Shown here piece after piece: positions 24,349 to 39,439 of a stretch of DNA of 64,000 bases (position 1 is the first letter of the stretch; each line of letters begins with the position of its first letter). The stretch covers positions 3,472,001 through 3,536,000 of the forward strand of contig NZ_CP017774.1 of NCBI RefSeq assembly GCF_001857965.1. Reading direction: 5' to 3'. Source of the stretch: Flavobacterium commune. Lineage in GTDB: Bacteria; Bacteroidota; Bacteroidia; Flavobacteriales; Flavobacteriaceae. Both the position numbers and the translations under genes were made by a program. Below the pieces are notes generated by a model, which was not told the origin of the DNA, did no database searches, and saw only the letters and a list, made by a program, of their open reading frames with translations.

Positions 24349-24365
24349 CTTAAGTTTAGCTTAAG
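24349..24365 (+). promoter_or_regulatory. PmrA-box-like direct repeat, site 1
   Basis: CTTAAG (24349-24354), a 5-bp spacer, then CTTAAG (24360-24365): an 11-bp-period direct repeat 91 bp before the thioredoxin-like gene. The same arrangement occurs at two other promoters in the next 7.5 kb. It matches the published PmrA consensus YTTAAK-N5-YTTAAK. Proposed binding site for the response regulator encoded at 27589-28251. Confidence 0.7.
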
Positions 24366-24456
24366 AAAGATATAAACATGTAATATTCTTTTTGAATTTT
24401 AGTTTCTTTGATTAAACTTAATGTTGTTTGTTGAATAAAGTTTAAAAAAGGATTTC

Positions 24457-24894
24457 ATGAAAAATACACTATTACTATTGTTGGTTTTAACTGGATTTTT
24501 TGGGTATTCTCAAGATTGGAAAAGTAATTTTGATGAAGCTAAAAAAGAAGCTGTAAATGAAAATAAAAACATTCTTCTTGTATTTTCTGGCTCAGATTGG
24601 TGTGCACCTTGCATCAAATTAGATAATGTAGTTTGGAAATCGGAGGTATTCAAATCGGAATCCGAAAAAAACTGGGTGATTTATAAAGCTGATTTTCCTA
24701 AAAAGAAAGCCAATCAGTTGTCAGTCGAACAAACAGAATCGAATAATAAATTGGCGGAAAAATACAATCGAAATGGTAGTTTTCCCTTGGTGATCCTTTT
24801 GGATAAAACAGGAAAAGTGATTGGAATGACTGGTTTCAAAAACATTTCAGCAATAGATTATATACAGTTAATTCATTCATTGGAGAAAAAATGA
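24457..24894 (+). CDS. Exported thioredoxin-like protein
   Basis: A 145-residue protein with a signal peptide ending at about residue 19 (FFGYSQ). A thioredoxin fold carries the active site SDWCAPCIKLD (Cys about residues 49 and 52) and the cis-proline loop NGSFPLVILLDKTGKVIG. It belongs to the thioredoxin-7/DUF255-like group acting in the periplasm. It is the first gene of a run that includes apbE, DUF4266, DUF3570 and a two-component pair; its stop overlaps the apbE start by 4 bp. Its likely task is thiol-disulfide handling for the cysteine-containing partners, which is inference. Confidence 0.88.
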   Translation: MKNTLLLLLVLTGFFGYSQDWKSNFDEAKKEAVNENKNILLVFSGSDWCAPCIKLDNVVWKSEVFKSESEKNWVIYKADFPKKKANQLSVEQTESNNKLAEKYNRNGSFPLVILLDKTGKVIGMTGFKNISAIDYIQLIHSLEKK

Positions 24895-25874
24895 AAAATA
24901 TAGCTTACTTCCTTTTTTTACTTGCGACTTATAGTTCTTTTGGACAAATCACGCACAAGAGAAAACTATCAATGTTAGGTAGTCCATTAGAAATAACTGT
25001 TGTTGCACAAGACACTATTCAAGGAAATCAATATATCGATATGGCAATAGCTGAAGTAAAACGCATCGAAAATTTAATTTCCGATTGGATTCCGAGTTCG
25101 CAAATATCGAAAGTCAATCAAAATGCCGGAATCAAAGCCATTAAAGTAGATAAAGAAGTATTTGATCTAGTGGGTAGAGCTATCAAAGTATCCCAAATTA
25201 CTTCTGGAGCATTTGATATTTCCTATGCTTCAATGGATAAAATTTGGAAATTTGATGGTAGTATGAAAGCCATGCCAACGGAAGAAGCCATCAAGAAATC
25301 GGTTTCTAAAATTGGATATAAAAACATTATTCTTGATTCAAACGAGCAAACTATTTTCCTTAAAATCGGAGGAATGAAATTAGGACTTGGTGGCATTGGT
25401 CAAGGTTATATTGCTGACAAAGTGAAAGAATTACTCCAAACTAAAGGCTGTGTTTCAGGTATTGTTAATGTTTCAGGCGATATTAATACTTGGGGTAAAC
25501 AAGTTGATGGAAAATCTTGGACAGTTGCTATTGTAAACCCCATGAATAAAAATAAAATTTTTGCCACTTTCCCATTAGAAAACAGTGCTGTAGAAACTTC
25601 TGGTAGCTATGAAAAATTTGTTTTTTTTAATGGTATCCGCTATTCTCATATCATCGATCCACGAACGGGATATCCGGCTCAAGGCATTGTGAGTGTTTCG
25701 GTTTTTGCCAAACAAACCGAAATTGCTGATGCTTTAGCTACAGGAATTTTTGTTCTTGGAGTAGAAGTAGGCTTGGATTTAGTCAATCAAATGAAAGGGA
25801 TTCAGTGTATTATTGTGGATGATAAAGGTAAAATTCATACATCAAAAGGAATAGACATCAAAAAATTTGAATAA
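24891..25874 (+). CDS. apbE: FAD:protein FMN transferase (ApbE)
   Basis: Attaches FMN covalently to Thr/Ser of extracytoplasmic proteins. The 327-residue protein has a signal peptide (ends about residue 18, SSFGQ). ApbE landmarks are MLGSPLEITV, the FAD/metal-binding LGLGGIGQGYIADKV, NVSGDINTWG, ETSGSYEKF and YSHIIDPRTGYPA, then the metal-site region EIADALATGIFVLG. The set looks complete and active. It overlaps the thioredoxin-like gene and is followed after 1 bp by the DUF4266 lipoprotein gene. The substrate is not labelled by a standard FMN-binding domain in the operon; see the SGASKS motif in the DUF3570 protein. Confidence 0.94.
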   Translation: MKNIAYFLFLLATYSSFGQITHKRKLSMLGSPLEITVVAQDTIQGNQYIDMAIAEVKRIENLISDWIPSSQISKVNQNAGIKAIKVDKEVFDLVGRAIKVSQITSGAFDISYASMDKIWKFDGSMKAMPTEEAIKKSVSKIGYKNIILDSNEQTIFLKIGGMKLGLGGIGQGYIADKVKELLQTKGCVSGIVNVSGDINTWGKQVDGKSWTVAIVNPMNKNKIFATFPLENSAVETSGSYEKFVFFNGIRYSHIIDPRTGYPAQGIVSVSVFAKQTEIADALATGIFVLGVEVGLDLVNQMKGIQCIIVDDKGKIHTSKGIDIKKFE

Positions 25875-25875
25875 G

Positions 25876-26088
25876 ATGATACAGAAAATAATTTTAGTGT
25901 TATTGATTGTAGTTGTTTTTCAATCGTGTAACACAGTAAGAGAGTATGAAAAAGTATCCATCAATGATCCCGACATGAAACTTTCTGCTCGAACATCGGA
26001 ACGTTATGAAACTGCTTTTCAGGTTTATAGAGAAGCTGCAGCTGGAGCCAATGGAGGAAAATCGGGTGGAGGTTGTGGTTGCAACTAA
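25876..26088 (+). CDS. DUF4266 lipoprotein
   Basis: A 70-residue lipoprotein read from the ATG at 25876; an upstream TTG at 25867 is less likely. The lipobox is VVVFQSC (Cys about 16). The mature part has the DUF4266 pattern REYEKVSINDPDM, RYETAFQVYREAAAGANGG and a Cys-rich end GGGCGCN. The terminal C-G-C could be a metal ligand or a target of the neighbouring thioredoxin. Family function is unknown; I recall it next to DUF3570 and apbE in other bacteria. Confidence 0.88.
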   Translation: MIQKIILVLLIVVVFQSCNTVREYEKVSINDPDMKLSARTSERYETAFQVYREAAAGANGGKSGGGCGCN

Positions 26089-26132
26089 ATTTCTATCTCC
26101 AGTGGATGGAGTATTATTTTATAATATGTAAG

Positions 26133-27584
26133 ATGAAAAATAGAATCATATATTTCTTTTTATTAGTTGGAATCAGTGCATTTTCTCAAAAAACTACTGA
26201 CAGCATACAGTTTAAGAAAAGAGTTTTAGAAAGTACCGAGGTAGATTTTCTATTGAGTTATTACAATCAAGACGGCTCTAAATCAGCCGTTTCAGGTGGT
26301 CTTGGTTCGGAACAATTAACAGATATAGCTTCAAATGTTGTAGTTTCCATGCCTATAAATGACAATGATGTTTTAACGGTTGATTTGGGTATTTCGGCAT
26401 ATTCATCTGCTTCTTCCAGTAATATTAATCCATTTAATGCAACTGGTGCTTCGGGCGGTGGAGGCGATGACGACGACGATGATAACGATGATAATCCCAA
26501 TTCAGGTTCAACAGCACCTTATGGAACTCCATGGCAAGCTTCTTCAGGAGCTTCAAAGAGTGATCAGTTAACAGCTATAACCGTAAATTATGCTCACAGT
26601 AGTGATTCTCGTAATTTTATTTGGAATGCAGATGTTTCTTTTTCTAATGAATATGATTATACTTCTATAGGTTTTGGTGGAGGTGTAGCTCAACTTTTTA
26701 ACGATAAAAATTCAGAAATAAATCTTAAAGTCAATGCGTATTTAGATCAATGGAGACCTATTTATCCAACAGAATTACACGAATATTCAAAAAATGGTCC
26801 TGATTTCTTAAACCAAGGATTTTTTAGTGGAGTTTCAGTTTTAAATCAAAACGGACAAGCTACGGTGGATTATTTACCTTCAATTTTTCAAACTGTAAGT
26901 GCTGTGAATCGAAATTCGTATTCTGCTTCATTTGGATTTTCGCAGGTAGTTTCAAAAAAATTACAATTCTCTGTATTCTTTGATGTTTTAAAGCAACAAG
27001 GATTATTGTCAACACCGTATCACCGAATTTATTTTGCTGACAAAGACAATTATTATATTGGTCAAGCACAATATATTCCTGAATACCAAAACCAAAGCAA
27101 TGTAGGAGTGTATCAATTGTCAGACGATATTGAAAGATTGCCTAATAGTCGATTCAAATTGCCTATTGGAGGGCGACTCAATTATTACATTAACGAACGA
27201 TTTGTTTTGAGAACTTATTATCGCTATTATTCCGATAATTGGGATATTCAATCGCACACCGCCAATATCGAATTGCCTTTTAAAATTTCTGATCGATTTA
27301 CTATTTTCCCAATGTATCGTTTTTATACCCAAACGCAATCCAAATATTATGCACCTTATGAAACCCATTTATCAACCGAAAAATATTATACATCAGATGC
27401 TGATTTAAGTAGTTTTGATACTAATCAATATGGTTTTGGTATTAATTATACGGATATTTTTACAGGAGCAAAAATTTGGAAATTAGGTTTAAAGAATATC
27501 GATTTCAGATTCAGCCATTATCGAAGAAGTGATAATTTAACCGCAAATATTGCTACTATTGGATTTAAGTTTATCTTACAATAA
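26133..27584 (+). CDS. DUF3570 outer-membrane beta-barrel-like protein
   Basis: I chose the ATG at 26133 (MKNRIIYFFLLVG...SQ signal peptide), giving 483 residues; a frame opening at 26073 adds a non-signal N-terminus. After the signal the protein is rich in alternating aromatic/polar strands and ends in FKFILQ, as in outer-membrane barrels. A low-complexity acidic loop (residues about 108-125: GGGG then a long Asp/Asn run) sits between two TGAS/SGAS sites: T104-S107 and S138-S141. The second, SGASKS, resembles ApbE flavinylation motifs. Co-encoded with apbE, DUF4266 and a thioredoxin. Function unknown. Confidence 0.85.
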   Translation: MKNRIIYFFLLVGISAFSQKTTDSIQFKKRVLESTEVDFLLSYYNQDGSKSAVSGGLGSEQLTDIASNVVVSMPINDNDVLTVDLGISAYSSASSSNINPFNATGASGGGGDDDDDDNDDNPNSGSTAPYGTPWQASSGASKSDQLTAITVNYAHSSDSRNFIWNADVSFSNEYDYTSIGFGGGVAQLFNDKNSEINLKVNAYLDQWRPIYPTELHEYSKNGPDFLNQGFFSGVSVLNQNGQATVDYLPSIFQTVSAVNRNSYSASFGFSQVVSKKLQFSVFFDVLKQQGLLSTPYHRIYFADKDNYYIGQAQYIPEYQNQSNVGVYQLSDDIERLPNSRFKLPIGGRLNYYINERFVLRTYYRYYSDNWDIQSHTANIELPFKISDRFTIFPMYRFYTQTQSKYYAPYETHLSTEKYYTSDADLSSFDTNQYGFGINYTDIFTGAKIWKLGLKNIDFRFSHYRRSDNLTANIATIGFKFILQ

Positions 27585-27588
27585 AAAA

Positions 27589-28251
27589 ATGAAAATTCTA
27601 CTAATTGAAGACGAAATAGGTATCGCTAATTTTCTCCAACAAGGTTTGGAAGAAGAAGGTTATACTGTTTTAGTTGCTAATGATGGGAAAAAAGGACTCG
27701 AATTAGCCTTGGCTCAAACAGTAAATATTATTCTTTTAGATTGGATGTTACCCAAAATAACCGGAATTGAAGTTTGTAAAGCTATTCGAAAAGCAAATTC
27801 AACAACACCAATTATTTTTCTTACGGCCAAAGATACAGTTCAGGAAACCATAGAAGGACTCAAAGCTGGAGCCAATGATTACATCAAAAAACCATTTAGT
27901 TTTGAAGAATTACTCGAACGAATTAAAATTCATTTTAGGAATCAAACTCAACCTGAAATATTAAAATTGGGGTCTATAAAAATTGATTTGGCTCAATATC
28001 TTGTTAGCGTCAATGGAATTGAAGTGAATTTAACACAACGTGAATTTGAATTGCTACGCTATTTAGTTCAAAATAAAGGAAAAGTTTGCACTCGAACTCA
28101 AATTATAGAAGACGTTTGGGACATTCATTTTGAATATGATACTGGTGTGATTGATGTTTTTATGAATGCCATTCGTAAAAAATTAAATTTAAATAAAGAT
28201 GAAGATTTAATCAAAACTATTCGAGGAGTTGGTTATATTGCTAATGATTAA
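27589..28251 (+). CDS. OmpR/PhoB-family response regulator
   Basis: A 220-residue two-domain regulator starting at the ATG 27589 (MKILLIEDE), 4 bp after the DUF3570 stop. The receiver has E7-D8 and the phospho-acceptor D51 in LLDWMLPKITG, the Thr in FLTAKD and the Lys in YIKKPFS. The C-terminal winged helix has NLTQREFELLRYLVQNKGKVCTR and IDVFMNAIRKKL. OmpR-family proteins bind 11-bp-period direct repeats, exactly the spacing of the three CTTAAG pairs nearby. Its gene overlaps the kinase gene by 8 bp. PmrA, CusR and QseB are all relatives; orthology to PmrA is not shown. Confidence 0.94.
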   Translation: MKILLIEDEIGIANFLQQGLEEEGYTVLVANDGKKGLELALAQTVNIILLDWMLPKITGIEVCKAIRKANSTTPIIFLTAKDTVQETIEGLKAGANDYIKKPFSFEELLERIKIHFRNQTQPEILKLGSIKIDLAQYLVSVNGIEVNLTQREFELLRYLVQNKGKVCTRTQIIEDVWDIHFEYDTGVIDVFMNAIRKKLNLNKDEDLIKTIRGVGYIAND

Positions 28252-29644
28252 CACCCAATATATGTTTTCCTTTTCTTTTAAAAACAGAATTGCTTTTTAC
28301 TACATCATCAGCACGGGATTATTGATTTCGGTGGTGTTTTTTGTGATTTATCATAGTATAGATCACAATGTAAATACTCATATCAATGAAGATATTAACG
28401 ACGAAGTGCAAAAGCATTTAAGAGAGATTGTCATTGATCCTAATAATACTTATTTGATTCAGGTGGACGAATGGCGAGAACGGGAGCACAATACCGTTAA
28501 TGTAAATCCTGTTTTTGTACAGTTTTTAGACATCAACAAACAATTAATTGACAAGTCTCCTAATTTAAAAGGAATACAACTCAAAGTATATTCTACAGAA
28601 TGGAACAATAAATTTATAGATACTTACTTGAATAAAAAACCAATTAGACAAATTCAAGTACCACTATTAGACAAAAATAAAGTGGTTGGTTATTTATTAA
28701 TTGCCATGTCATTAGATGATGCAACAATGATTTTGAATAATTTGCAAAATACTTTATTAATTGCTTTTCCGCTAATACTACTTATTCTTTTCTTGATTGC
28801 CAGATTGATTGCCGGAAGAAGTATCAAGCCTGTAAGCTTAATTACTGCAACATCCAGCAAAATTACTAAAGACAATCTCAAGGAGCGTATCTCTCTGCCT
28901 CAAAATAAAGATGAACTTTATGTTTTATCCAAAACAATAAATGATTTGCTGGATAGAATTGAAAATGCCGTAGAAAGAGAAAAACAATTCACTTCAGATG
29001 CTTCACACGAATTACGAACTCCATTAACGGTTTTGAAAGGAACATTAGAAGTTCTGGTTAGAAAACCCAGAACACAAGCGGAATATGAAGACAAAATTAA
29101 ATATGGAATTTCAGAAGTAAATCGATTGAATACTTTAGTAGATCAACTGTTATTACTGGCTCGATTTGAAAATCAAATTCAAAGTTTGAAGGTAGAAAAA
29201 GTTTATTTGAACGCTATGATTTTAGATATTCTGACCCGATTTTCCAGTAAAATTAATGTCAAAAAAATAAGCATCAATCCTTCTTTTTCAAAAGATTTTA
29301 ATATTGAATCCGATAATTATTTACTATCCATAATCATCAGTAATATTATCAGTAATGCAATTAAATATTCTAATGAGAAAGGAACTGTTTCAATACAACT
29401 TTCACAAAATCAAAACACTACAACTTGTACCATTACGGATAACGGAATTGGGATTGCTAAAGAAGATTTAGATAAAATTTTCAATCCTTTTTATCGTTCA
29501 AATCCAACGCAGCATCCCGAGATAAAAGGATCTGGATTAGGACTTTCTATTGTAAAACGATTAGCAGATTTGCTCAATATTCAATTTGAAATTCATAGCG
29601 AAGTAGGCAAAGGAACTACAGTTGTTTTAAGTTTTAATAGCTAA
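28244..29644 (+). CDS. Sensor histidine kinase, partner of the OmpR-type regulator
   Basis: A 466-residue inner-membrane kinase. One helix is at about residues 15-35, then a periplasmic sensing region of about 130 residues, a second helix (TLLIAFPLILLILFLIARLI), a HAMP domain, the phospho-acceptor His near 255 in SDASHELRTPLTVLKG, and an HATPase with NIISNAIKYS, DNGIGI and GSGLGLSIV. The periplasmic part contains an EWRE (ExxE) motif as in iron-sensing PmrB, but such a short motif is common by chance. It starts within the regulator gene; an alternative ATG is at 28262. The ligand is unknown. Confidence 0.93.
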   Translation: MINTQYMFSFSFKNRIAFYYIISTGLLISVVFFVIYHSIDHNVNTHINEDINDEVQKHLREIVIDPNNTYLIQVDEWREREHNTVNVNPVFVQFLDINKQLIDKSPNLKGIQLKVYSTEWNNKFIDTYLNKKPIRQIQVPLLDKNKVVGYLLIAMSLDDATMILNNLQNTLLIAFPLILLILFLIARLIAGRSIKPVSLITATSSKITKDNLKERISLPQNKDELYVLSKTINDLLDRIENAVEREKQFTSDASHELRTPLTVLKGTLEVLVRKPRTQAEYEDKIKYGISEVNRLNTLVDQLLLLARFENQIQSLKVEKVYLNAMILDILTRFSSKINVKKISINPSFSKDFNIESDNYLLSIIISNIISNAIKYSNEKGTVSIQLSQNQNTTTCTITDNGIGIAKEDLDKIFNPFYRSNPTQHPEIKGSGLGLSIVKRLADLLNIQFEIHSEVGKGTTVVLSFNS

Positions 29645-29659
29645 AGGTCAATAAAAATT

Positions 29660-29676
29660 CTTAAGCGAATCTTAAG
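29660..29676 (+). promoter_or_regulatory. PmrA-box-like direct repeat, site 2
   Basis: CTTAAG (29660-29665), a 5-bp spacer, CTTAAG (29671-29676), 96 bp before the LtaS-like gene. With site 3 it shares the longer pattern TTAAGC-N3-TCTTAAG-N-CGAT. A possible -7 box TACTTTTA (29731-29738) with TTG at 29712 lies between the site and the gene. Confidence 0.7.
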
Positions 29677-29772
29677 CCGATACTAATTAAATATTAAGGT
29701 GGTTAATCTGGTTGATTTAATTTTTGAATCTACTTTTATAATTTATTACGAATTCAGTTTTAAATTATATTT

Positions 29773-31707
29773 ATGAAAAAAATAGCTTTCCTCAAACCAA
29801 CATTTAGTTTCTTATTTATTGGATTATTGATAACTACTTTATCTAGATTTCTTTTGTTTTTTTTCTATATCGAACGAGTAATTTCAACTGCTGATTATTG
29901 GTATGTTTTTCCAATAGGTTTGCGAATGGATTTAATAATACTCTGCTATATTCTCTTTCTTCCAACACTGTTAATTTGTTTACTTCCAGATCGGTTTTTA
30001 AAGAAAATAAGCGTTTTTTTTACTTTTTATTTTGTTTTTTTCTTGTCGTTAATTTTGTTTTTAGAATTAGCAACACCAAATTTCATAGGACAATACGACA
30101 CTAGGCCGAATCAATTATTTATCCAATATTTAATTTACCCCAAAGAAATTTTGCAGCTGCTTTACAAAGGTTATCTTCTTTCAATTATTGCAACTTTTAT
30201 TATCATTTCTGTATTTATTTATGTTTTGATAAAGCATAGAATAAGACTTTTTGGAACAGTTTTTTCGGTTTATAAAACCAAGTTGATTTTATTCCCATTG
30301 ATTGTTTTTCTGTTATTTTTTGGAGCTCGCTCTAGTCTTACTTCCAAGAGACCAATAAATTCAAGTAATGCAGTGTTTTCTACAGATCAATTGACCAATT
30401 GTTTGGGATTAAATTCATTTTACACCATTACATTTGCATTATATTCAATAAAAAATGAAGGCAACTCTGGGAAAATTTATGGGAAAATGAATCCTGAGGA
30501 AGCCATTTCAAGAGTTAAAAAATATATGAATGTTAGCAATAGTGATTTTACTGATAAAGAATTACCATTGTTACACAATCAATATTCTGATACACTACTT
30601 AAGAGACCATACAACATAGTTATTCTACTAGAAGAAAGTTTGGGAGCAGAATATGTAGGGTGTTTAGAAGGCTTAAAGCTAACTCCTGAATTTGATAAAT
30701 TAGCAAAAGAAGGTTTGCTGTTTACTAATTTATATTCAACAGGAACTAGAAGTGTAAGAGGAATTGAAGCTGTGGTTACAGGTTTTTTACCTTCGCCATC
30801 AGAAAGTGTTGTAAAATTAAATAATTCCCAAACCAATTTTTATACTATTGCGAGTTTATTAAAGAGAAAAGGATATGACACTAGTTTTATTTATGGAGGC
30901 ATGAATAATTTTGACAATATGGGTTCTTTTTTTAATGGAAACGGCTTTGATTATTTGATTGACGAAGACAATTTTGATTCCAAAAAAAGCATTTTTCATG
31001 GAACATGGGGCTGGTGTGATGAAGATGTAATGAAAAAAGCAAACACCTATTTTAGTTCGTTAAAGACAAAACCTTTTGTTTCATTAATTTTTTCATCCTC
31101 TAATCACGAGCCCTTTGAGTATCCCGAAGGAAGAATTAAATTATATGACAAACAGAAAAATACAGTAAATAATGCAATGAAATATGCCGATTATTCTATA
31201 GGAAAGTTTTTTGAGATGGCTAAAAAAGAAGCCTATTATAAAAACACCATATTTGTAATAATTGCTGATCACAATACCCGAACTTATGGCAAGCATTTAG
31301 TTCCTATTCATAAATTTCATATTCCAGCATTAATCATTGGTCCTAATTTTCCAAAAGGAGAGAAATATACCAAATTATGTAGTCAAATTGACATACAACC
31401 AACAGTTTTAAGCAAAATTGGTATGAATGTAAGTACTCCAATGCCTGGCAGGAATTTGTTTGAACTTCCGGAAAATGTAAAAGGAAGAGCCATAATGCAG
31501 TTTAACGACATCAATGCTTTTAGATTAGGCAATCAGGTAGTTATCATGCAACCTTATAAAGAACCTTTGCAATTTAAGGTTGAAAAAGACACTGTGTTTA
31601 CTCCTGTAACTCTGAATAAAGAATTAGCAAAAGACGCTTTGGCTCATGTGATAACGGCCTCTTATTTATATAAAAACAGGAAATATTGCTCTAATAATAG
31701 GGAGTAA
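29773..31707 (+). CDS. LtaS/MdoB-like membrane sulfatase-family transferase
   Basis: A 644-residue protein with about five N-terminal membrane helices (to about residue 190) and a periplasmic alkaline-phosphatase-superfamily domain. Metal-site and nucleophile regions are visible: YNIVILLEESLGAEYVG, STGTRSVRGIEAVVTGFLPS with the likely catalytic Thr, HGTWGWCDED and FVIIADHNTR. Relatives transfer phosphoglycerol or phosphoethanolamine from phospholipids to envelope polymers or lipids. In a Gram-negative lacking lipoteichoic acid it likely modifies lipid A, a glycan or an envelope lipid (inference). It has its own CTTAAG-pair promoter just downstream of the kinase gene. Confidence 0.88.
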   Translation: MKKIAFLKPTFSFLFIGLLITTLSRFLLFFFYIERVISTADYWYVFPIGLRMDLIILCYILFLPTLLICLLPDRFLKKISVFFTFYFVFFLSLILFLELATPNFIGQYDTRPNQLFIQYLIYPKEILQLLYKGYLLSIIATFIIISVFIYVLIKHRIRLFGTVFSVYKTKLILFPLIVFLLFFGARSSLTSKRPINSSNAVFSTDQLTNCLGLNSFYTITFALYSIKNEGNSGKIYGKMNPEEAISRVKKYMNVSNSDFTDKELPLLHNQYSDTLLKRPYNIVILLEESLGAEYVGCLEGLKLTPEFDKLAKEGLLFTNLYSTGTRSVRGIEAVVTGFLPSPSESVVKLNNSQTNFYTIASLLKRKGYDTSFIYGGMNNFDNMGSFFNGNGFDYLIDEDNFDSKKSIFHGTWGWCDEDVMKKANTYFSSLKTKPFVSLIFSSSNHEPFEYPEGRIKLYDKQKNTVNNAMKYADYSIGKFFEMAKKEAYYKNTIFVIIADHNTRTYGKHLVPIHKFHIPALIIGPNFPKGEKYTKLCSQIDIQPTVLSKIGMNVSTPMPGRNLFELPENVKGRAIMQFNDINAFRLGNQVVIMQPYKEPLQFKVEKDTVFTPVTLNKELAKDALAHVITASYLYKNRKYCSNNRE

Positions 31708-31734
31708 AATAAAACTAATATACTTTGTTTTTTA

Positions 31735-31751
31735 TTTAAGCAGTTCTTAAG
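31735..31751 (+). promoter_or_regulatory. PmrA-box-like direct repeat, site 3
   Basis: TTTAAG (31735-31740), a 5-bp spacer, CTTAAG (31746-31751), followed by GACGAT. It ends 21 bp before the -7 box TATTTTTG (31773-31780), close to the -33 region, and lies 72 bp before the first gene of the metal-efflux operon. Confidence 0.7.
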
Positions 31752-31772: not shown

Positions 31773-31780
31773 TATTTTTG
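31773..31780 (+). promoter_or_regulatory. Promoter -7 box of the metal-efflux operon
   Basis: TATTTTTG matches TAnnTTTG 43 bp before the 31824 start. A TTG lies at 31756-31758 but spacing (14 bp) is short, which would suit an activator-dependent promoter. Confidence 0.5.
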
Positions 31781-31823: not shown

Positions 31824-32228
31824 ATGACTCTAAAAAAAATAATTACACTTTTATTTTTACTCTTTTTTGTATATTCCAATACAGAACTGGGGCAGTTATT
31901 TAAAATTTCAAATCTTGTTCAACACTATTTAGAGCATACTAATCACAAGCAAGAACAGCCACAATCTTTTATGGCGTTTATTATTAATCATTACAAAAAT
32001 TCACAAAAACACACTGATGCAGATGGACATGATAAACATGAAAATTTACCTTTCAAGACACAAACTCTAAATTTAGATACTGTTGTTCTTACTTTTGAAG
32101 AGATTCTAACTATTTTTACTTTTAAGAAACCAATATTGATCTCTGTAAATCAATCCCTTCCGATTTATAAAGAATGGTATATTTCTAATGTACTTCTGTC
32201 GATTTGGCAGCCCCCTAAACTAGCATAA
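31824..32228 (+). CDS. Small His-rich exported/membrane protein of a metal-efflux operon
   Basis: A 134-residue protein with an N-terminal hydrophobic segment (residues about 5-18) serving as signal or anchor. The middle is rich in His and Asp (HYLEHTNHKQEQ, HYKNSQKHTDADGHDKHENLPF), a plausible metal-binding stretch, and the end is IWQPPKLA. I have seen similar unnamed genes ahead of CzcA/CusA pumps in Bacteroidota. It precedes the pump gene by 100 bp, with two hairpins between them. It may bind metal in the periplasm; no named domain recognised. Confidence 0.8.
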   Translation: MTLKKIITLLFLLFFVYSNTELGQLFKISNLVQHYLEHTNHKQEQPQSFMAFIINHYKNSQKHTDADGHDKHENLPFKTQTLNLDTVVLTFEEILTIFTFKKPILISVNQSLPIYKEWYISNVLLSIWQPPKLA

Positions 32229-32328: not shown

Positions 32329-35300
32329 ATGCTTAATAAAATCATCTTTTTTTCTATTCAGAATAAGCTCATCGTACTATTATTCACTTTAGGAATTTTT
32401 GGATTCGGATTTTTTTCTGTCTTCCAAATTTCCATAGGTGCTGTTCCTGATGTGACTAACAATCAGGTTCAGGTGATTACTACCTCACGCAATCTTTCTA
32501 CTCAGGATATTGAACAATTTATTACCTATCCGGTGGAGATTGAAATGTCTAATTTGCCTGGAGTAAAAGAAATTCGTTCGGTTTCAAAATTCGGATTATC
32601 GGTAGTAACTATTGTTTTTGATGATGATTTAGGAACTTATTTGCCACGGCAATTAATAGCCGAAAAAATTAAATCGGCTGCTGAGAAAATCCCGGAAGGT
32701 TTTGGCACACCCGAAATGGGGCCTATAACAACCGGACTGGGTGAAATTTATCAATATACACTTGAAGTAAAACCTGAATTTAAAAACAATTATTCGGTTA
32801 CGGATTTAAGAACACTTCAGGATTGGGTGGTAAAACGTCAACTTTCAGGAATTAAAGGAGTAGTCGAAATTAATACTTGGGGTGGTTATTTAAAACAATA
32901 CGAAATAGCCATTTCGCCCTCTCGTTTAAATGCGATGAACATAAGTGTTTCGGATGTTTTTAAAGCGTTGCAAAATAACAACGGAATTGCAGGAGGAGCC
33001 TATATTGAAAGAGTCAACCAAAGTTATTTTATTCGTGCTGAAGGAAAAACAAAATCTTTAGAAGATATTGGAAATATTGTGGTTACAAATCATAATGGCT
33101 TGCCTATTTTTATTAAAAATGTTGCCAATGTGCGTTTTGGTCATGCCAATCGTTTTGGAGCAATTACCGGAAACGGAGAAGGAGAGAAGGTACTTGGACA
33201 AGTAATGATGCTCAAAGATGCCAATTCTAAAAAGGTAATTAATGATGTAAAAGACAGGGTTGCAGAAATTCAGAAAAGTTTACCTGAAGGCGTTTATATC
33301 AATGGCTTTTTGGAAAGAAGTGAGTTAGTAAGCAAAACTACTTTTACAGTTGCCGAAAACCTAATTCTGGGCTGTTTGATTGTTGTTTTCGTAGTTGTTT
33401 TGTTGCTTGGAAATTGGCGTTCAGGATTGGTTGTAGCATCGGTTATTCCGCTGTGTTTATTGTTTGCCATTTCGTTAATGAATATTTTTGGCATTGATGC
33501 CAATTTAATGAGTTTAGGCGCGATTGATTTCGGAATCATTATCGATGGAGCTGTAATTATTGTCGAATTTATTGCGTTCCAAATTGCTCATAAATCAGCA
33601 CATTTAGCCAAACTTTCAAGAGAAGACAGTCAGCTAGAAATTGACCAGATTACCTACAAAAGTGCTTCAAAAATGATGAATTCGGCTATTTTTGGACAGT
33701 TAATTATTTTAATTGTTTTTATTCCAATTCTATCGCTTTCCGGCATTGAAGGAAAAATGTTCAAACCCATGGCAATGACTTTTAGTTTTGCTTTGGTTGG
33801 AGCAATGTTGTTTTGTTTTTCGTATGTTCCAGTAGTTGCATCCTTATTTTTAAAACCTAAAGAAGAAAATCCAGATTCATTTTCGAATAAATTAATAGCC
33901 CAATTAAATTCCTTTTATCTGCCTGTAATCAGTTGGGCGTTAGAAAATACTAAAAAAGTAATGTACAGCGCGATAGGATTGTTAGTAATGGCTGTCATTT
34001 TATTTTCAACTATGGGAGGCGAATTTATTCCGACTTTGGATGAGGGCGATTTTGTGATTCAGCCTGTTTTAAAAACAGGAACTTCTTTGAGTAAAACCAT
34101 CGAAACTACAACTAAAATTGAGAAAATAATTCTTAAAAACTTTCCCGAAGTTCAACAGGTTGTTAGTAGGATAGGAGCAGCCGAAGTCCCAACCGATCCA
34201 ATGAGTATGGAAGAAAGCGACATTATTGTGAAGCTAAAACCAAAATCGGATTGGGTTTCAGCTTCCAGCAAAGACGAATTGGCTGATAAAATCAAATTAG
34301 CAGTCGAAGAACAAATTCCGAATATGGAAATCGAATTTACCCAACCTATTGAGATGCGTTTTAACGAATTAATTTCAGGGACTCGTTCGGATGTGGCGGT
34401 GAAAATTTTTGGTGAAAATTTAGATGTTTTAGCTAAAAAAGCACAAGAAATTGAGAAGGCCATTAGAAATGTTGAAGGAGCTTCGGATATCATTATAGAA
34501 AAAACAGAAGGTTTGCCACAAATGAGTGTACAATTTGACCGTTCTAAAATAGCACGTTATGGATTGAATATTGCTGATTTGAATGAATTGATTGCTCTTG
34601 GCTTTGCCGGAAAAACGGTTGGAAATGTGTTTGAAGGTGAAAAACGATTTGATATGGTCATTCGTTTGGATCAAAATAACCGACATGATATTGAGGATTT
34701 AAAAAATCTCTATGTAACTACTCCGTCGGGTAATCAGATTCCAATGCAAGAATTGGCAACAATTGAATATACTCAAGGTCCTGCAAAAATTTCAAGAGAC
34801 AATACCAACAGGAGAATTGTCGTTGGAATTAATGTTAGAAATAGAGATTTACAAAGTGTGGTAACTGACATTCAAAATAATGTAACTGCCAAAGTAAAAT
34901 TACCATCTGGGTATTCGATTGAATATGGAGGACAATTTGAAAACCTTCAAAGTGCCAAAGCAAGATTACTTATTGCAGTGCCTATTGCCTTATTTTTGAT
35001 ATTCATACTGTTGTATTTTGCCTTTGGTTCTGTCAAAGAAGCTTTGATGGTTTATTCAGCCATTCCATTATCTGCTGTTGGAGGAATCTTATTTTTATGG
35101 ATAAGAGATTTGCCTTTTAGTATCTCTGCAGGAGTTGGTTTTATTGCGTTGTTTGGTATTGCGGTATTAAACGGAATTGTATTAATTGAACATTTTAAAG
35201 AATTGAAACATCAGGGAATTACAAATAAAGACGAATTAATTTTGAAAGGAACAAGCGATAGATTGCGTCCCGTATTATTAACAGCAGCAGCAGCTGCCTT

Positions 35301-36666
35301 AGGATTTTTGCCAATGGCAATTTCATCATCTGCTGGAGCCGAAGTTCAAAGACCATTAGCAACAGTAGTAATTGGTGGATTGTTTACGGCTACAATTTTG
35401 ACAATGATAGTGTTGCCTGTTTTATTTAAAGTTTTTGATGGAAAAGAATTCAAAAAAACAAAATTTAAAAAACTGCATCATGGAGCTTCTGTTGTTTTGT
35501 TTTTGCTGAGTACTTCATTTGCTTTTGGACAAAATTCTAATCAAGAATTACATCAGTTAATCACAATAGGAATCAATAATAACAACTCTTTGAAAGCTTC
35601 TTTATTACAGGTTGAAAAAGTAAAAGCCAATATTAACAGTGCTTATTCTTTTGACAAAACCAATGTTTATTATAATTACGACCAAAATAATTTGGCCTAC
35701 AATAATAAAGCTGTTTCGGTAATTGGAGTTCAACAAAGCTTTTTGTTTCCTACGGTGTATGCTGCCCAAAAAAAACTCAACACAGCCGAATTTCAAAAGC
35801 AACAAGCTGTTTTTGAATTAGAAAAAAACAAGTTGAGTTTAGAAATTTCGAAATTGTTTTATCAAATTGTGTATTTGCAACACCAGGAGATTTTATACAA
35901 AAGATTAGATAGTTTGTATCAAAATTTCTCTAAAGCAAGCAATCGTCGTTTTGAATTAGGAGAAACTAATTATCTTGAAAAAATCACAGCTCAGTCCAAA
36001 GCAAGACAAATTGCTTTAAAGCTTTCACAAATTAGAAATGAGAAAGAAGCACAGTATAATTTACTTCAATATAACATTCAATCGAATGAGAAAATTACAA
36101 TAAAAACAAATGAAATCAAACCTTTAGAGTTTTCAACTAATGAAATAAGTAAAACACTTTATAGTAATTATTTAGAGTCTGTTAGGGAAAATTATATCAA
36201 TCAAATGAATTTACAAAAACAAAATTGGTTGCCTGATTTAAATTTAGAATACTTCAGAGGTTCTAATAAAGGATTATCCCAATCTTTGAATGGTTTTCAG
36301 GTGGGGATAGCTTTACCAATTCTGTTCTCTGGAAATGTTTCTAAAACTAAAGCAGCCAAACTTGAATTAGAAAGTTGGGAAGCACAAATCCAAAATGAAA
36401 ATCAAAAAATAAATGCTTTTGTTGAAAACAAAAAGAATGAATTGTTAAAGCACCAAGAAGCTATTCATTATTACAATCAACAGGGAAAAAAATTAGCTGA
36501 CGAAATTCTGAAAGTAGCTAATATGAGTTACAAGCATGGAGAAATTGACTTTTTTCAATACATCCAAAGTCTTGAAAACGCTACAATTATTGAAGTCGAA
36601 TATTTAGATAATGTACTTCAGTTTAACCAAACTCAATTAGATTTTCAATACTTAAATTTTAAATAG
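32329..36666 (+). CDS. CzcA/CusA heavy-metal RND pump fused to a TolC-like channel
   Basis: A 1445-residue fusion. Residues 1 to about 1040 form an HME-RND exporter with QNKLIVLLFT, PDVTNNQVQV and the proton-relay signature DFGIIIDGAVIIVE (D400, D406, E413). This matches the CzcA divalent-metal type more than the CusA Cu/Ag type. At about 1049-1068 a hydrophobic segment ending STSFAFGQ looks like an internal signal peptide. Residues about 1070-1445 form a TolC-like domain with coiled-coil repeats. The fusion is known in Bacteroidota. The adaptor gene follows after 6 bp. Confidence 0.94.
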   Translation: MLNKIIFFSIQNKLIVLLFTLGIFGFGFFSVFQISIGAVPDVTNNQVQVITTSRNLSTQDIEQFITYPVEIEMSNLPGVKEIRSVSKFGLSVVTIVFDDDLGTYLPRQLIAEKIKSAAEKIPEGFGTPEMGPITTGLGEIYQYTLEVKPEFKNNYSVTDLRTLQDWVVKRQLSGIKGVVEINTWGGYLKQYEIAISPSRLNAMNISVSDVFKALQNNNGIAGGAYIERVNQSYFIRAEGKTKSLEDIGNIVVTNHNGLPIFIKNVANVRFGHANRFGAITGNGEGEKVLGQVMMLKDANSKKVINDVKDRVAEIQKSLPEGVYINGFLERSELVSKTTFTVAENLILGCLIVVFVVVLLLGNWRSGLVVASVIPLCLLFAISLMNIFGIDANLMSLGAIDFGIIIDGAVIIVEFIAFQIAHKSAHLAKLSREDSQLEIDQITYKSASKMMNSAIFGQLIILIVFIPILSLSGIEGKMFKPMAMTFSFALVGAMLFCFSYVPVVASLFLKPKEENPDSFSNKLIAQLNSFYLPVISWALENTKKVMYSAIGLLVMAVILFSTMGGEFIPTLDEGDFVIQPVLKTGTSLSKTIETTTKIEKIILKNFPEVQQVVSRIGAAEVPTDPMSMEESDIIVKLKPKSDWVSASSKDELADKIKLAVEEQIPNMEIEFTQPIEMRFNELISGTRSDVAVKIFGENLDVLAKKAQEIEKAIRNVEGASDIIIEKTEGLPQMSVQFDRSKIARYGLNIADLNELIALGFAGKTVGNVFEGEKRFDMVIRLDQNNRHDIEDLKNLYVTTPSGNQIPMQELATIEYTQGPAKISRDNTNRRIVVGINVRNRDLQSVVTDIQNNVTAKVKLPSGYSIEYGGQFENLQSAKARLLIAVPIALFLIFILLYFAFGSVKEALMVYSAIPLSAVGGILFLWIRDLPFSISAGVGFIALFGIAVLNGIVLIEHFKELKHQGITNKDELILKGTSDRLRPVLLTAAAAALGFLPMAISSSAGAEVQRPLATVVIGGLFTATILTMIVLPVLFKVFDGKEFKKTKFKKLHHGASVVLFLLSTSFAFGQNSNQELHQLITIGINNNNSLKASLLQVEKVKANINSAYSFDKTNVYYNYDQNNLAYNNKAVSVIGVQQSFLFPTVYAAQKKLNTAEFQKQQAVFELEKNKLSLEISKLFYQIVYLQHQEILYKRLDSLYQNFSKASNRRFELGETNYLEKITAQSKARQIALKLSQIRNEKEAQYNLLQYNIQSNEKITIKTNEIKPLEFSTNEISKTLYSNYLESVRENYINQMNLQKQNWLPDLNLEYFRGSNKGLSQSLNGFQVGIALPILFSGNVSKTKAAKLELESWEAQIQNENQKINAFVENKKNELLKHQEAIHYYNQQGKKLADEILKVANMSYKHGEIDFFQYIQSLENATIIEVEYLDNVLQFNQTQLDFQYLNFK

Positions 36667-36672
36667 ATTCCA

Positions 36673-37791
36673 ATGAAAAAAATACTCTCTATACTTTCTT
36701 TATCAATTGTTTTGTTTTCTTGCCAGCAAAATAAAACAGAAGAAAATACTGTAGTTGATTCTGATTTAATTACAGTGACAGCTACCCAATTTAAATCAGC
36801 CGGGATGGAACTTGGCAGTCCAACAGAACAGTCTTTTGATGTTATGGTAAAAGCGACTGGTAAAGTGGATGTGCCTCCTCAAAATCGTACTCAAATCACT
36901 TCTTTTGTTGGAGGTTATGTAAAGTCAACTCAATTATTGGTTGGAGACAAAGTAGTGAAAGGACAGGCTTTATTAACTCTTGAAAACACCGAATTTTTAG
37001 ATATTCAAAAAGAATATTTGGAAGTAGCTGAACAAATTAATTATTTGAAATCAGAATACTTTCGTCAAAAAACATTGTTTGATGAAAAAATTACTTCTCA
37101 GAAAAATTATCTAAAAGCGGAAAGTGATTATCGTCGGGCTAAAGGTATGTATCAAAGTTTGAAAGAAAAACTAAAATTGTTAAACATCAATCCTGCTAAT
37201 GTTGAAAAAGGAAAGTTATCATCTGTTGTAACTATTTACGCGCCTATTTCAGGAGATATTGTGGTAATGAATGCTCATTTAGGAATGCATATTAATCCAT
37301 CCGATGTGATTTTAGAAATTATCCAAACGGATCATTTGCATTTAGAATTGGCTATTTTCGAAAAAGACATTTTGAAAATTAAGAAAGAACAAGATATTCT
37401 ATTTACTGTTCCGGAGGCTTCTAAGGAGGTTTTTAATGCTAAAGTTCATTTGGTGGGAAAGTCAATTGAAGGTAACGACAGAACGATAAATATTCATGCA
37501 CATTTAGACGATAATATCAAACAACGATTGCTTACCGGAATGTTTGTGGAAGCCAATATTATTGTTGATTCTAAAAAAGCTTTAGCCATTCCTAAAGACG
37601 CTTTATTGAATGAAGAAAACAAAAATTTCATACTTTTATTAAGTAAAAACAAAAATGGTAATTATACTTTTAAAAAAGTAGCCGTTACTACTGGAGCAGT
37701 ATCAGAGGATTATGTTGAAATAATTCCTGATAATCAAATCAATAAAAATTCCAGAATTTTGCTAAAAGGAGCTTATGAAGTTGCTAATTAA
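36673..37791 (+). CDS. CzcB/CusB-type periplasmic adaptor of the metal pump
   Basis: A 372-residue lipoprotein (lipobox LFSCQQ, Cys about 17) of the membrane-fusion family. It has a first lipoyl half around SFVGGYVKSTQLLVGDKVVKGQALLTLE, a helical hairpin (about residues 110-165), a second half IYAPISGDIVVMNAHLGMHI, then beta-barrel and C-terminal domains. It bridges the CzcA pump to the channel domain. It lies 6 bp after the pump gene and 9 bp before the ferritin/VIT1 gene, so all are one operon. Confidence 0.92.
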   Translation: MKKILSILSLSIVLFSCQQNKTEENTVVDSDLITVTATQFKSAGMELGSPTEQSFDVMVKATGKVDVPPQNRTQITSFVGGYVKSTQLLVGDKVVKGQALLTLENTEFLDIQKEYLEVAEQINYLKSEYFRQKTLFDEKITSQKNYLKAESDYRRAKGMYQSLKEKLKLLNINPANVEKGKLSSVVTIYAPISGDIVVMNAHLGMHINPSDVILEIIQTDHLHLELAIFEKDILKIKKEQDILFTVPEASKEVFNAKVHLVGKSIEGNDRTINIHAHLDDNIKQRLLTGMFVEANIIVDSKKALAIPKDALLNEENKNFILLLSKNKNGNYTFKKVAVTTGAVSEDYVEIIPDNQINKNSRILLKGAYEVAN

Positions 37792-37800
37792 TCTTGTATT

Positions 37801-38919
37801 ATGAATCTACAAAAACTAAAAAGTCAGTTGCAAACCGAAGTTGATACTGCTTTTCTTTATGAAAATATAGCGGCTATACAAACGGATTCTAATTTAACTA
37901 AGGTTTTAAATAGCTTGGCAGAGATTGAAAACAATCATGCCAATCATATGCTTCAAAAAGTGAGGGCGGTTGAGCCTAATTACGAAATGCCAGCTGCTTC
38001 ATCCAGGGCCAAGATACAACTCAAAGCAGGTAAGTATTTTGGATATAGCAGTATTATTAGTAATTTGTCAAATACCGAGAGAGAGTTCGCAGAAATTGCT
38101 ATTAAAGACAAAATAGCCAAAGGAATTAAAACTTCAGGATTTGAACACAATCATTTGAATATTATTGAAGCTGTTAGTCAAAATGAAGCGCTCAATGTTT
38201 CGGGTGGTTTGTTGTCTAAATTTGAAAGCCGTCATAAATCAGTTGGGGGAAATGCTTTGCGTGCTGCCGTTTTAGGAGCTAATGACGGTTTGGTTTCCAA
38301 TATGAGTTTGGTTATGGGAGTTGCGGGTGCTGCTGTTTCTAATAACACTATTCTGCTTACTGGAATTGCGGGACTTTTAGCAGGGGCTATTTCTATGGCT
38401 TTAGGCGAATGGCTATCAGTACAAAGTTCGAGAGAATTAAATCAGCGTCAAATAGATTTGGAGATGGAAGAGTTCGAAGTCTCTCCTGAAGAAGAAAAAA
38501 AAGAGTTGGTTTTGTTGTATCAGGCAAAAGGAATGAATGCTGATGAAGCTCAAAAATTAGCCGAAAAGGCATTTGAAAATCCTGATACCGCGATGGACGC
38601 TATCATTGCAGAAGAATTAGGAATTGATAAAGAAGAATTAGGAGGTTCTGCATGGGAAGCGGCTATAGCTTCTTTTGTGTTGTTTTCAATTGGAGCCATA
38701 ATTCCTTTGTATCCGTTTATTTTTATCAATGGCGAAAAAGCAATTTTGTTAAGTTTAGCAAGCTGTGTTATTGGACTTTTCGGTATTGGAGCAGCGATTA
38801 CTTTATTAACGGGTAAAAGTCTTTGGTTTTCAGGCCTTAGACAAGTTTTATTTGGATTAGTTGCTGCCGCAATAACTTATGGAATTGGTTCGCTCATAGG
38901 TGTTTCCCTAGCAGGATAA
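37801..38919 (+). CDS. MbfA-like protein: ferritin-like domain fused to VIT1/CCC1 transporter
   Basis: A 372-residue protein. Residues 1 to about 140 form a four-helix ferritin-like domain with metal ligands suggested by TAFLYENIA and LAEIENNHANHM (ExxNH..H) and a later EREFAE/FEHNH pair. The rest is a VIT1/CCC1 transporter with five hydrophobic helices: LRAAVLGANDGLVSNMSLVMG, ISMALGEWLSVQSSREL, and the EELGI segment. MbfA in Rhizobiales/Bradyrhizobium exports iron; yeast CCC1 moves Fe2+/Mn2+. Its place after a CzcA-type pump suggests shared response to excess divalent metal. Confidence 0.9.
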   Translation: MNLQKLKSQLQTEVDTAFLYENIAAIQTDSNLTKVLNSLAEIENNHANHMLQKVRAVEPNYEMPAASSRAKIQLKAGKYFGYSSIISNLSNTEREFAEIAIKDKIAKGIKTSGFEHNHLNIIEAVSQNEALNVSGGLLSKFESRHKSVGGNALRAAVLGANDGLVSNMSLVMGVAGAAVSNNTILLTGIAGLLAGAISMALGEWLSVQSSRELNQRQIDLEMEEFEVSPEEEKKELVLLYQAKGMNADEAQKLAEKAFENPDTAMDAIIAEELGIDKEELGGSAWEAAIASFVLFSIGAIIPLYPFIFINGEKAILLSLASCVIGLFGIGAAITLLTGKSLWFSGLRQVLFGLVAAAITYGIGSLIGVSLAG

Positions 38920-38959: not shown

Positions 38960-39439
38960 ATGAATGATGCACATTTACATATGATTGTAAACCATTTTCC
39001 TATTGTTGGACCAATTTTAGGATTATTGGTTTTAATAGGTGGTCTGTTTTTTAAAAACACTCCAATTAAAAATACCGCTTATTTTTTATTTATAACAGCT
39101 ACCGTTTTCACAGTGTTTTCTATGACAACCGGTGAAGGGGCGGAAGAAATAGTGGAGGATATGCCAACTATCGGGCATGAAATTATTCATAATCATGAAG
39201 AATTGGCGGAAAAATTTGCTATTATCATGTATTTATTAGGTGCTGTATCTGTTATTGGATTAATAACTAACATTAAAAAACATTCTAAAGCCAATTTCTT
39301 TTCGTATGCAATTTTAGTTATTTCGATAGTTGCTGTGTTTTTTTCAACAAAAGTGGGAACATCTGGAGGAGAAATTCGTCATACCGAAATTCGCCCTGAA
39401 AAAGCGTTTCAAAATCTTAATGTTGAAAGTCCGGAATGA
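38960..39439 (+). CDS. Four-helix membrane protein of unknown function
   Basis: A 159-residue protein with about four membrane helices (residues about 12-30, 38-55, 83-102, 111-129). The start AHLHMIVNHFPIVGPILG resembles DUF2231-type heme or metal proteins with an early His cluster, and the loop GEGAEEIVEDMP...HEIIHNHEE is His/Glu rich. It is the last gene of the metal-efflux operon, 40 bp after the MbfA-like gene. Possible metal or heme binding; no firm family. Confidence 0.75.
   Translation: MNDAHLHMIVNHFPIVGPILGLLVLIGGLFFKNTPIKNTAYFLFITATVFTVFSMTTGEGAEEIVEDMPTIGHEIIHNHEELAEKFAIIMYLLGAVSVIGLITNIKKHSKANFFSYAILVISIVAVFFSTKVGTSGGEIRHTEIRPEKAFQNLNVESPE

Follow-up and report, generated by a model that had tools for sequence, protein, structure and literature searches.

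A TTAAG direct repeat as the probable operator of a CusR/CzcR-like two-component regulator in Flavobacterium commune and other Bacteroidia

Which protein reads the three copies of YTTAAG-N5-CTTAAG that stand within 7.4 kb of one another in Flavobacterium commune, and what is controlled through them? The copies lie in a stretch of 64,000 nucleotides of contig NZ_CP017774.1 (positions 3,472,001 to 3,536,000, hereafter the window), in which an OmpR-type response regulator and a sensor histidine kinase are encoded between the first copy and the second. A sequence-only reading of this window had proposed that the pair controls its own thioredoxin/apbE operon, an LtaS-like envelope transferase and a CzcA-type metal pump, joining metal stress to envelope modification as PmrAB does in enterobacteria. 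The comparisons reported here, made on sequence, indicate with high confidence that the core repeat TTAAG-N6-TTAAG is the operator of this regulator (27589-28251), which would head an autoregulated metal regulon conserved in Bacteroidia. The pair is the best candidate owner of the boxes and the three named units are its likely targets, but not as a PmrA system.

The strict repeat and its conservation

The three sites are as follows.
24349..24365, no strand assigned: site 1, CTTAAGTTTAGCTTAAG, CTTAAG-N5-CTTAAG, before the thioredoxin/ApbE/DUF4266/DUF3570/regulator/kinase operon
29660..29676, plus strand: site 2, CTTAAGCGAATCTTAAG, CTTAAG-N5-CTTAAG, before the LtaS-like gene, the array extending at 29682 and 29693
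31735..31751, plus strand: site 3, TTTAAGCAGTTCTTAAG, TTTAAG-N5-CTTAAG, before the pump operon

All three had been placed and spelled exactly by the sequence-only reading, and the distance to the start codon, which it had put at 72-96 bp, is 91 bp for site 1 (ATG at 24457), 96 bp for site 2 (29773) and 72 bp for site 3 (31824). The two further half-sites of the site 2 array, ACTAAT (29682) and ATTAAG (29693), keep the same 11-bp step. A longer string, TTAAGC-N3-TCTTAAG-N-CGAT, is indeed common to sites 2 and 3, but its CGAT tail was absent behind those pump sites of relatives that were compared, and the tail was dropped as a part of the box.

Of the 46 matches listed for the looser pattern across the 3.85 Mb genome, these three places are the only ones that fit the strict form YTTAAG-N5-CTTAAG. 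Exact TTAAG-N6-TTAAG was found at six distinct places, three at this locus and the others at 1184833 (inside a gene), 3052898 (between convergent genes, behind the 3' end of what looks by eye like a DNA polymerase III beta gene) and 3265066. The looser YTTAAK-N5-YTTAAK gives six strand matches in the window against 1.6 expected (100 shuffles, the largest 5); these amount to four places, the fourth being 59853 (TTTAAG/TTTAAT).

Both the gap and the place of the repeat are conserved in relatives. Across 80 named loci holding the closest relatives of the regulator (72-82% identical, 1.56 Mb in all), CTTAAG pairs with gaps of 0-21 nucleotides (nt) number 39 at N5, 4 at N11, 2 at N16 and 1 at N19, with none elsewhere, and the N5 peak is absent in 11 control A/T-rich palindromic hexamers. 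The place of the box was scored in the same loci, allowing no more than one mismatch over the ten bases of the two TTAAG half-sites, within 900 bp upstream of a tblastn match, where chance would give about 0.05 sites per strand (an estimate from 412 whole-genome matches, and somewhat more in A/T-rich intergenic DNA). The box stands before CzcA in 33 of 33 cases (25 exact), before the p134-type gene in 6 of 6 (3 exact), before divergent LtaS-family genes in 60 of 61 (40 exact), before co-directional LtaS in 4 of 4 (3 exact), before the thioredoxin operon head in 37 of 40 (9 exact) and before the regulator as operon head in 29 of 36 (7 exact). Units were assigned to the CzcA, p134, VIT or DUF2231 class according to which gene was met first behind the kinase. 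A locus lacking a flank or a gene was left unclassed for the gene concerned, and the counts for divergent LtaS genes and operon heads are not independent, as they use one common intergenic region. Records of metagenome-assembled genomes titled Klebsiella pneumoniae, Lentimicrobium, Crocinitomicaceae and Rhizobium (L105, L117, L157, L183) also carry Flavobacterium-type regulator loci, 73-79% identical, and are likely misbinned or mislabelled.

Conservation reaches well beyond the genus. Among 199 genomes of the family, 11 match the regulator at E <= 1e-60. Nine of these matches belong to other genera (58-63% identity), and in all nine a site lies no more than about 66 nt from the regulator start, exact in eight and with one mismatch in L225. 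At the level of the class, 25 of 345 genomes had a match at E <= 1e-55, 13 of them in other families (53-66% identity); all 13 loci (3.6 kb each) contain exact TTAAG-N6-TTAAG, no more than 160 bp upstream of the regulator in nine. The operator is thereby legible in nine families, its own included. The 28 oriented sites of other genera and families give the consensus TTTAAGCAAATCTTAAGA (TTTAAGCAAATCTTAAG), from which the spacer of window site 2, CGAAT, is one base off. Paralogue loci, told from orthologue loci by identity alone, had the exact site in 0 of 9 at 43-49% identity and in 1 of 11 at 36-45%. The F. commune genome has 1.6 exact sites per Mb. On the same scale the two sets of paralogue loci give 0 and 25, and the four sets of orthologue loci 97, 109, 209 and 546; as these orthologue loci are of 20 kb or 3.6 kb, their values are not mutually comparable. 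The box is linked to this regulator and not to its paralogues. By the genome count and the gap test the strict site is far from random, and the box is conserved before orthologues in congeners, other genera and other families; on both of these points the sequence-only reading had offered itself for refutation, and on both it was borne out.

The strict site also follows the regulator between genomes. Of 150 congeneric genomes, 104 match the regulator at E <= 1e-70; CTTAAG-N5-CTTAAG is present in 59 of these and in 3 of the remaining 46 (Fisher 2e-9, relatedness uncorrected). The strict sites total 74: 39 are no further than 12 kb from the regulator gene, 32 are found at other places in regulator-bearing genomes, and 3 are in regulator-lacking genomes. 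Twenty-eight of the 32 off-locus sites precede a TonB siderophore-type receptor (24), a SusC-like receptor (1), p134/CzcA (2) or a thioredoxin gene (1). Two of the 24 receptors were assigned by HMM (254.5 and 240.6 bits, both above the TIGR01783 cut-off of 223.5), 11 by BLAST (one at only 28% identity) and 11 by reading the protein start, and the receptor-linked boxes belong to Flavobacterium genomes of 4.7-6.5 Mb. The regulon looks, on this sequence evidence, wider than had been proposed, taking in TonB siderophore-type receptors in large Flavobacterium genomes. In L098, L099 and L101 the boxed receptor is immediately preceded by a DUF4198-like gene (the family was tested in L098).

Whether some other transcription factor, such as a metal repressor encoded elsewhere, binds the boxes instead is a fair question, given that the regulator's own binding is predicted from sequence and that 3 of the 46 genomes without a regulator match hold a strict site, one of them before an LtaS-family gene (G345) and two without an assigned target. 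We consider this unlikely: 11-bp direct repeats suit the OmpR/PhoB fold, a near-fixed site precedes the regulator gene in nine of nine other genera but was not found at nine paralogue loci, and the LtaS site in question lies on a 3265-base contig, no. 246 of a draft assembly, in which the regulator may merely be missing.

Promoter register and the weighing of the reading

The Bacteroidota promoter consensus is of the -33/-7 type, and in the window the following -7-like elements stand behind the sites.
24403..24410, plus strand: TTTCTTTG, 37 nt past site 1, not fitting TAnnTTTG
29718..29726, plus strand: TAATTTTTG, 19 nt past the last half-site of array 2
31773..31780, plus strand: TATTTTTG, 21 nt past site 3

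Near-identical promoters were removed from the relatives before spacing was counted, which reduced pump promoters from 33 to 29, divergent LtaS promoters from 60 to 57, thioredoxin heads from 37 to 34 and regulator heads from 29 to 28. At the pump promoters a TAnnTTT(G/A) or TAnnnTTTG element starts 21-22 nt past the site in 28 of the 29, as in the window, and the half-sites continue upstream at -11 and -22 with mean matches of 3.62 and 4.55 of 5 (background 1.55). At the 57 divergent LtaS promoters, 53 of 81 -7-like counts fall at 21-22, 32-34, 42-45 and 52-54 nt, in steps of about 11, and the strongest pair there may be any step of a phased array.

We propose, from these arrangements, that the kinase (28262-29644) would sense a periplasmic metal-related signal and that the phosphorylated regulator would bind as head-to-tail dimers along an array of same-strand half-sites 11 bp apart. 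Where the promoter is that of the pump or of an LtaS-type gene, the final half-site would occupy the -33 position and recruit RNA polymerase (class II activation). The regulator's targets would be its own operon, predicted to encode a flavinylated thiol/electron-transfer system; the LtaS/OpgB-like envelope transferase; the CzcA-type pump together with the VIT1 and DUF2231 proteins; and the TonB siderophore-type receptors of large Flavobacterium genomes.

The opposite sign of control, repression at these sites, would have a parallel in VgrR, an OmpR-type iron regulator of Xanthomonas which, in the excerpted text of PMC5231390, represses a TonB receptor gene, and the spacing is different at 13 TonB receptors examined here, whose -7-like candidates are mostly 38, 65-67 or 94 nt from the box. 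We find repression unlikely, as the pump and LtaS arrays end before the -7-like element is reached and keep a preferred register to it, the usual position of an activator.

Several observations weigh against an activating operator of this regulator as the common explanation. The loose YTTAAK-N5-YTTAAK has no genome-wide enrichment (20+26 matches against 62+52 in the reversed control), and YTTAAG-N5-CTTAAG with up to two mismatches is at chance in the window (21 against 23). Because of this only the strict form is informative, and the loose PmrA consensus was rejected as evidence. At the promoters, 28 of the 81 LtaS counts fall outside the four peaks, and the spacing at the operon heads differs, at 37-38 nt for the thioredoxin head (17 counts in 34 promoters) and 56-57 nt for the regulator head (16 in 28); since this is not the spacing of the pump, the activation geometry there would not be the same, and part of the head sites may serve the divergent LtaS gene instead. 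In the place test, VIT-headed units have the box in 5 of 7 cases (3 exact) and DUF2231-headed units in 3 of 8 (1 exact). Exact TTAAG-N6-TTAAG is missing from 6 of the 80 named loci and from 1 of 18 congeneric loci (a count that leaves out L079, whose regulator is 44% identical and not an orthologue), and two of these 18, L063 and L076, have no YTTAAG-N5-YTTAAG before any operon gene. Among the 13 loci of other families, four lack an exact site in the 160 bp next to the regulator: the only site of L259 is 1077 bp upstream, that of L265 is downstream only, and those of L268 and L269 are 607 and 572 bp upstream. Forty-five of the 104 regulator-bearing genomes have no strict CTTAAG-N5-CTTAAG, and no target could be assigned to four of the 32 off-locus sites (one each in G341, G325, G011 and G024) or to two of the three sites in regulator-lacking genomes.

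With the loose consensus at or below chance, it might be supposed that the boxes themselves are accidental or belong to a repeat family. Strict site, gap and place are conserved while spacers and flanks diverge, and this explanation, to which we give practically no credence, is refuted by the strict-site count, the N5 gap peak and the contrast between orthologues and paralogues. A related pattern was set apart from the regulon: in five species a TTAAG-N6-TTAAG pair lies about 21 nt before a -7-like element upstream of a DUF1573-like gene adjoining a mutS-like gene (names by eye; 2165969-2166013 in the genome of the window, and G005, G004, G017 and G008; L189, L190, L194, L202, L204). Its second half-site reads TTTTAAG, perhaps for another regulator, and these promoters were excluded as having a box of a different flavour.

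The regulator, its kinase and the likeness to PmrA

The operator reading supported above turns on the two proteins encoded between sites 1 and 2.
27589..28251, plus strand: OmpR-type response regulator, CusR/CzcR-like (PF00072 and PF00486)
28262..29644, plus strand: sensor histidine kinase with a periplasmic sensor domain (HAMP, HisKA and HATPase domains)

The regulator combines a receiver with a winged-helix domain, and the boxes have the tandem direct half-sites, about 11 bp apart, of an OmpR/PhoB operator. Of the NCBIfam models listed, TIGR01387 (CzcR/SilR/CopR) scores best with 215.3 bits, under its cut-off of 279.2, and the best family of the kinase, TIGR01386, is likewise below its curated cut-off.

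The resemblance to the PmrA box is close. The half-site is TTAAG/TTAAT with a leading C in an 11-bp direct repeat, and YTTAAK-N5-YTTAAK, the consensus adopted in the sequence-only reading, fits the three sites as well as the E. coli boxes. In an E. coli control stretch with one mismatch allowed, CTTAAGGTTGGCTTAAT was found before eptA and CTTAAGGTTCACTTAAT before pmrR, which we take to be BasR boxes, and both differ little from Flavobacterium sites, for example CTTAAGATTGGCTTAAG (L175). An envelope transferase gene stands behind the box in both systems, that for EptA in one and for the sulfatase-fold LtaS/OpgB-like protein in the other. EptA has a sulfatase fold.

A true PmrAB system, in which the regulator would be the PmrA orthologue and the LtaS-like protein would take EptA's part, is very unlikely all the same, and the comparisons do not support the pair as a PmrA system. 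The regulator scores 140.4 bits with the PmrA model NF007928 (cut-off 330) and the kinase 149 bits with the PmrB model (cut-off 314), and the regulator is 37% identical to CusR and 32% to E. coli BasR. Klebsiella PmrA, as described in the excerpt of PMC4660055, reads bases through Asn188, Asn196 and Arg210, with hydrophobic contact by Thr187, Val192 and His195, and binds head-to-tail with the -35 element at half-1. Mapped through BasR, which has both asparagines, these positions correspond here to Gly186, Ala194 and Arg212 and to Thr185, Val190 and Asn193, so that both base-specific asparagines are replaced. The sensor domain of the kinase was modelled with a mean pLDDT of 84, and the model matches, at fold level only, WalK, KinD and CusS (5ku5, silver-bound; E 1.2e-4, TM 0.41, rmsd 6.3), with CzcS as a weak hit (5gpo, E 0.011). 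The PmrB sensor part is much shorter. Of 49 kinases, 42 have an ExxE motif at some point of their periplasmic part; at residues 70-73 (EWxE), however, the first position is Glu in only 33, so that ExxE is not constant as a PmrB-like sensing motif. E48 is Glu in all 49, while His is kept at H52 in 43 and at H76 in 44; since residues 75-81 are of low confidence in the model, we do not propose a metal site. The regulon differs from that of PmrAB in its CzcA pump, flavinylation system and siderophore-type receptors, and its promoters are of the Bacteroidota type. Judged from these sequences, the box would work like a PmrA box but its regulator is not a PmrA.

The CusRS/CzcRS/CopRS systems are nearer, sharing the best NCBIfam families, a regulator gene adjoining an RND metal pump and the sensor match to CusS; they differ in that the scores here stay under the curated cut-offs and the regulon is wider. 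CusR-type boxes are palindromic and are not TTAAG repeats. In the excerpts of PMC4074579 and PMC8306577, ColRS/RaxRH of Pseudomonas and Xanthomonas offer another metal-responsive pair linked to membrane functions: ColRS responds to zinc, iron, manganese and cadmium and controls membrane functions including lipid A remodelling. Those excerpts name no RND pump or flavinylation operon for ColRS/RaxRH, and the ExxE motif is not invariant in the present kinases. VgrRS of Xanthomonas campestris, from the same excerpt as above (PMC5231390), resembles the pair as an OmpR-type iron-sensing system acting on a TonB receptor promoter and differs in that VgrR represses the receptor; the excerpt gives no binding motif for VgrR.

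Genes of the locus and meaning of the regulon

The remaining genes behind the three sites are these.
24457..24894, plus strand: thioredoxin-like protein (PF13899/PF13098)
24891..25874, plus strand: ApbE flavin transferase (PF02424, 9.6e-81)
25876..26088, plus strand: DUF4266 small lipoprotein-like protein with C-terminus GGGCGCN (PF14086)
26115..27584, plus strand: DUF3570 protein containing a TGAS and an SGAS site, its start uncertain (PF12094)
29773..31707, plus strand: LtaS/OpgB-like sulfatase-fold transferase, VP1736-like (PF00884; PDB 3lxq, E 2.3e-122)
31824..32228, plus strand: protein of 134 aa that includes 7 histidines and gave no Pfam family
32329..36666, plus strand: RND pump of the CzcA/CusA type with a fused outer-membrane efflux domain (TIGR00914 1182 bits, cut-off 701; PF00873 and PF02321)
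36673..37791, plus strand: CusB/HlyD-type adaptor (PF16576)
37801..38919, plus strand: VIT1-family protein (PF01988, residues 153-364)
38960..39439, plus strand: DUF2231 membrane protein (PF09990 at its cut-off, 26.4 bits)

The first four genes have the make-up of a DUF3570 flavinylation operon, with ApbE, a thioredoxin-like protein, a DUF4266 protein with a C-terminal CxC and a DUF3570 protein with two [S/T]GA[S/T] motifs, at residues 110 and 144 of the reading used. The same four genes and the two DUF3570 sites characterise the DsbD/ApbE/DUF3570/DUF4266 clusters of Meheust et al. (2021, PMC8238504), whose excerpted text places VIT1 in 25 clusters, considers a possible role in iron assimilation and gives no regulator or operator for them.

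The pump and its outer-membrane efflux domain form one protein of 1445 aa, which reads DFGIIID where E. coli CusA reads AVGAMVD; the former we take to mark divalent-metal pumps. The LtaS-like protein, a putative transferase, is below the curated equivalog cut-offs (76 bits against 572 for the OpgB type, 53 against 970 for LtaS), and its closest solved chain is the uncharacterised VP1736 (PDB 3lxq). Box-preceded LtaS-family genes are of two types, that of the window and one only about 30% identical to it (compared in the window, L131 and L196), and L196 has a gene off-locus that looks by eye like the window type. The LtaS gene and the regulator/kinase pair are kept in L065, L068, L070 and L073 (G008, G004, G015 and G006; 5.3-5.7 Mb), where the locus has no CzcA or flavinylation operon; a box before siderophore-type receptors is found elsewhere in three of these genomes, and not in G004.

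For the two-component systems of Bacteroidota, knowledge of regulons and operators is scant, and the listings returned by searches aimed at the present operon, operator or regulon among open-licence PubMed Central papers show no account of it. Here an operator and its promoter register could be read from sequence alone. On balance we lean slightly towards a broader account, in which a CusR/CzcR-type regulator across Bacteroidia would have converged on TTAAG, the PmrA half-site, with different base-contacting residues. Through 11-bp arrays in register with the Bacteroidota -7 element it would run a regulon for metal and iron homeostasis in which efflux and the uptake of siderophores are tied to envelope modification and to flavin-based electron transfer in the periplasm. 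The operator gives a common candidate regulator to the LtaS-like transferase, the siderophore-type receptors and the DUF3570/ApbE flavinylation operon, which makes their function testable, and a second protein solution for reading TTAAG, besides that of PmrA, is suggested.

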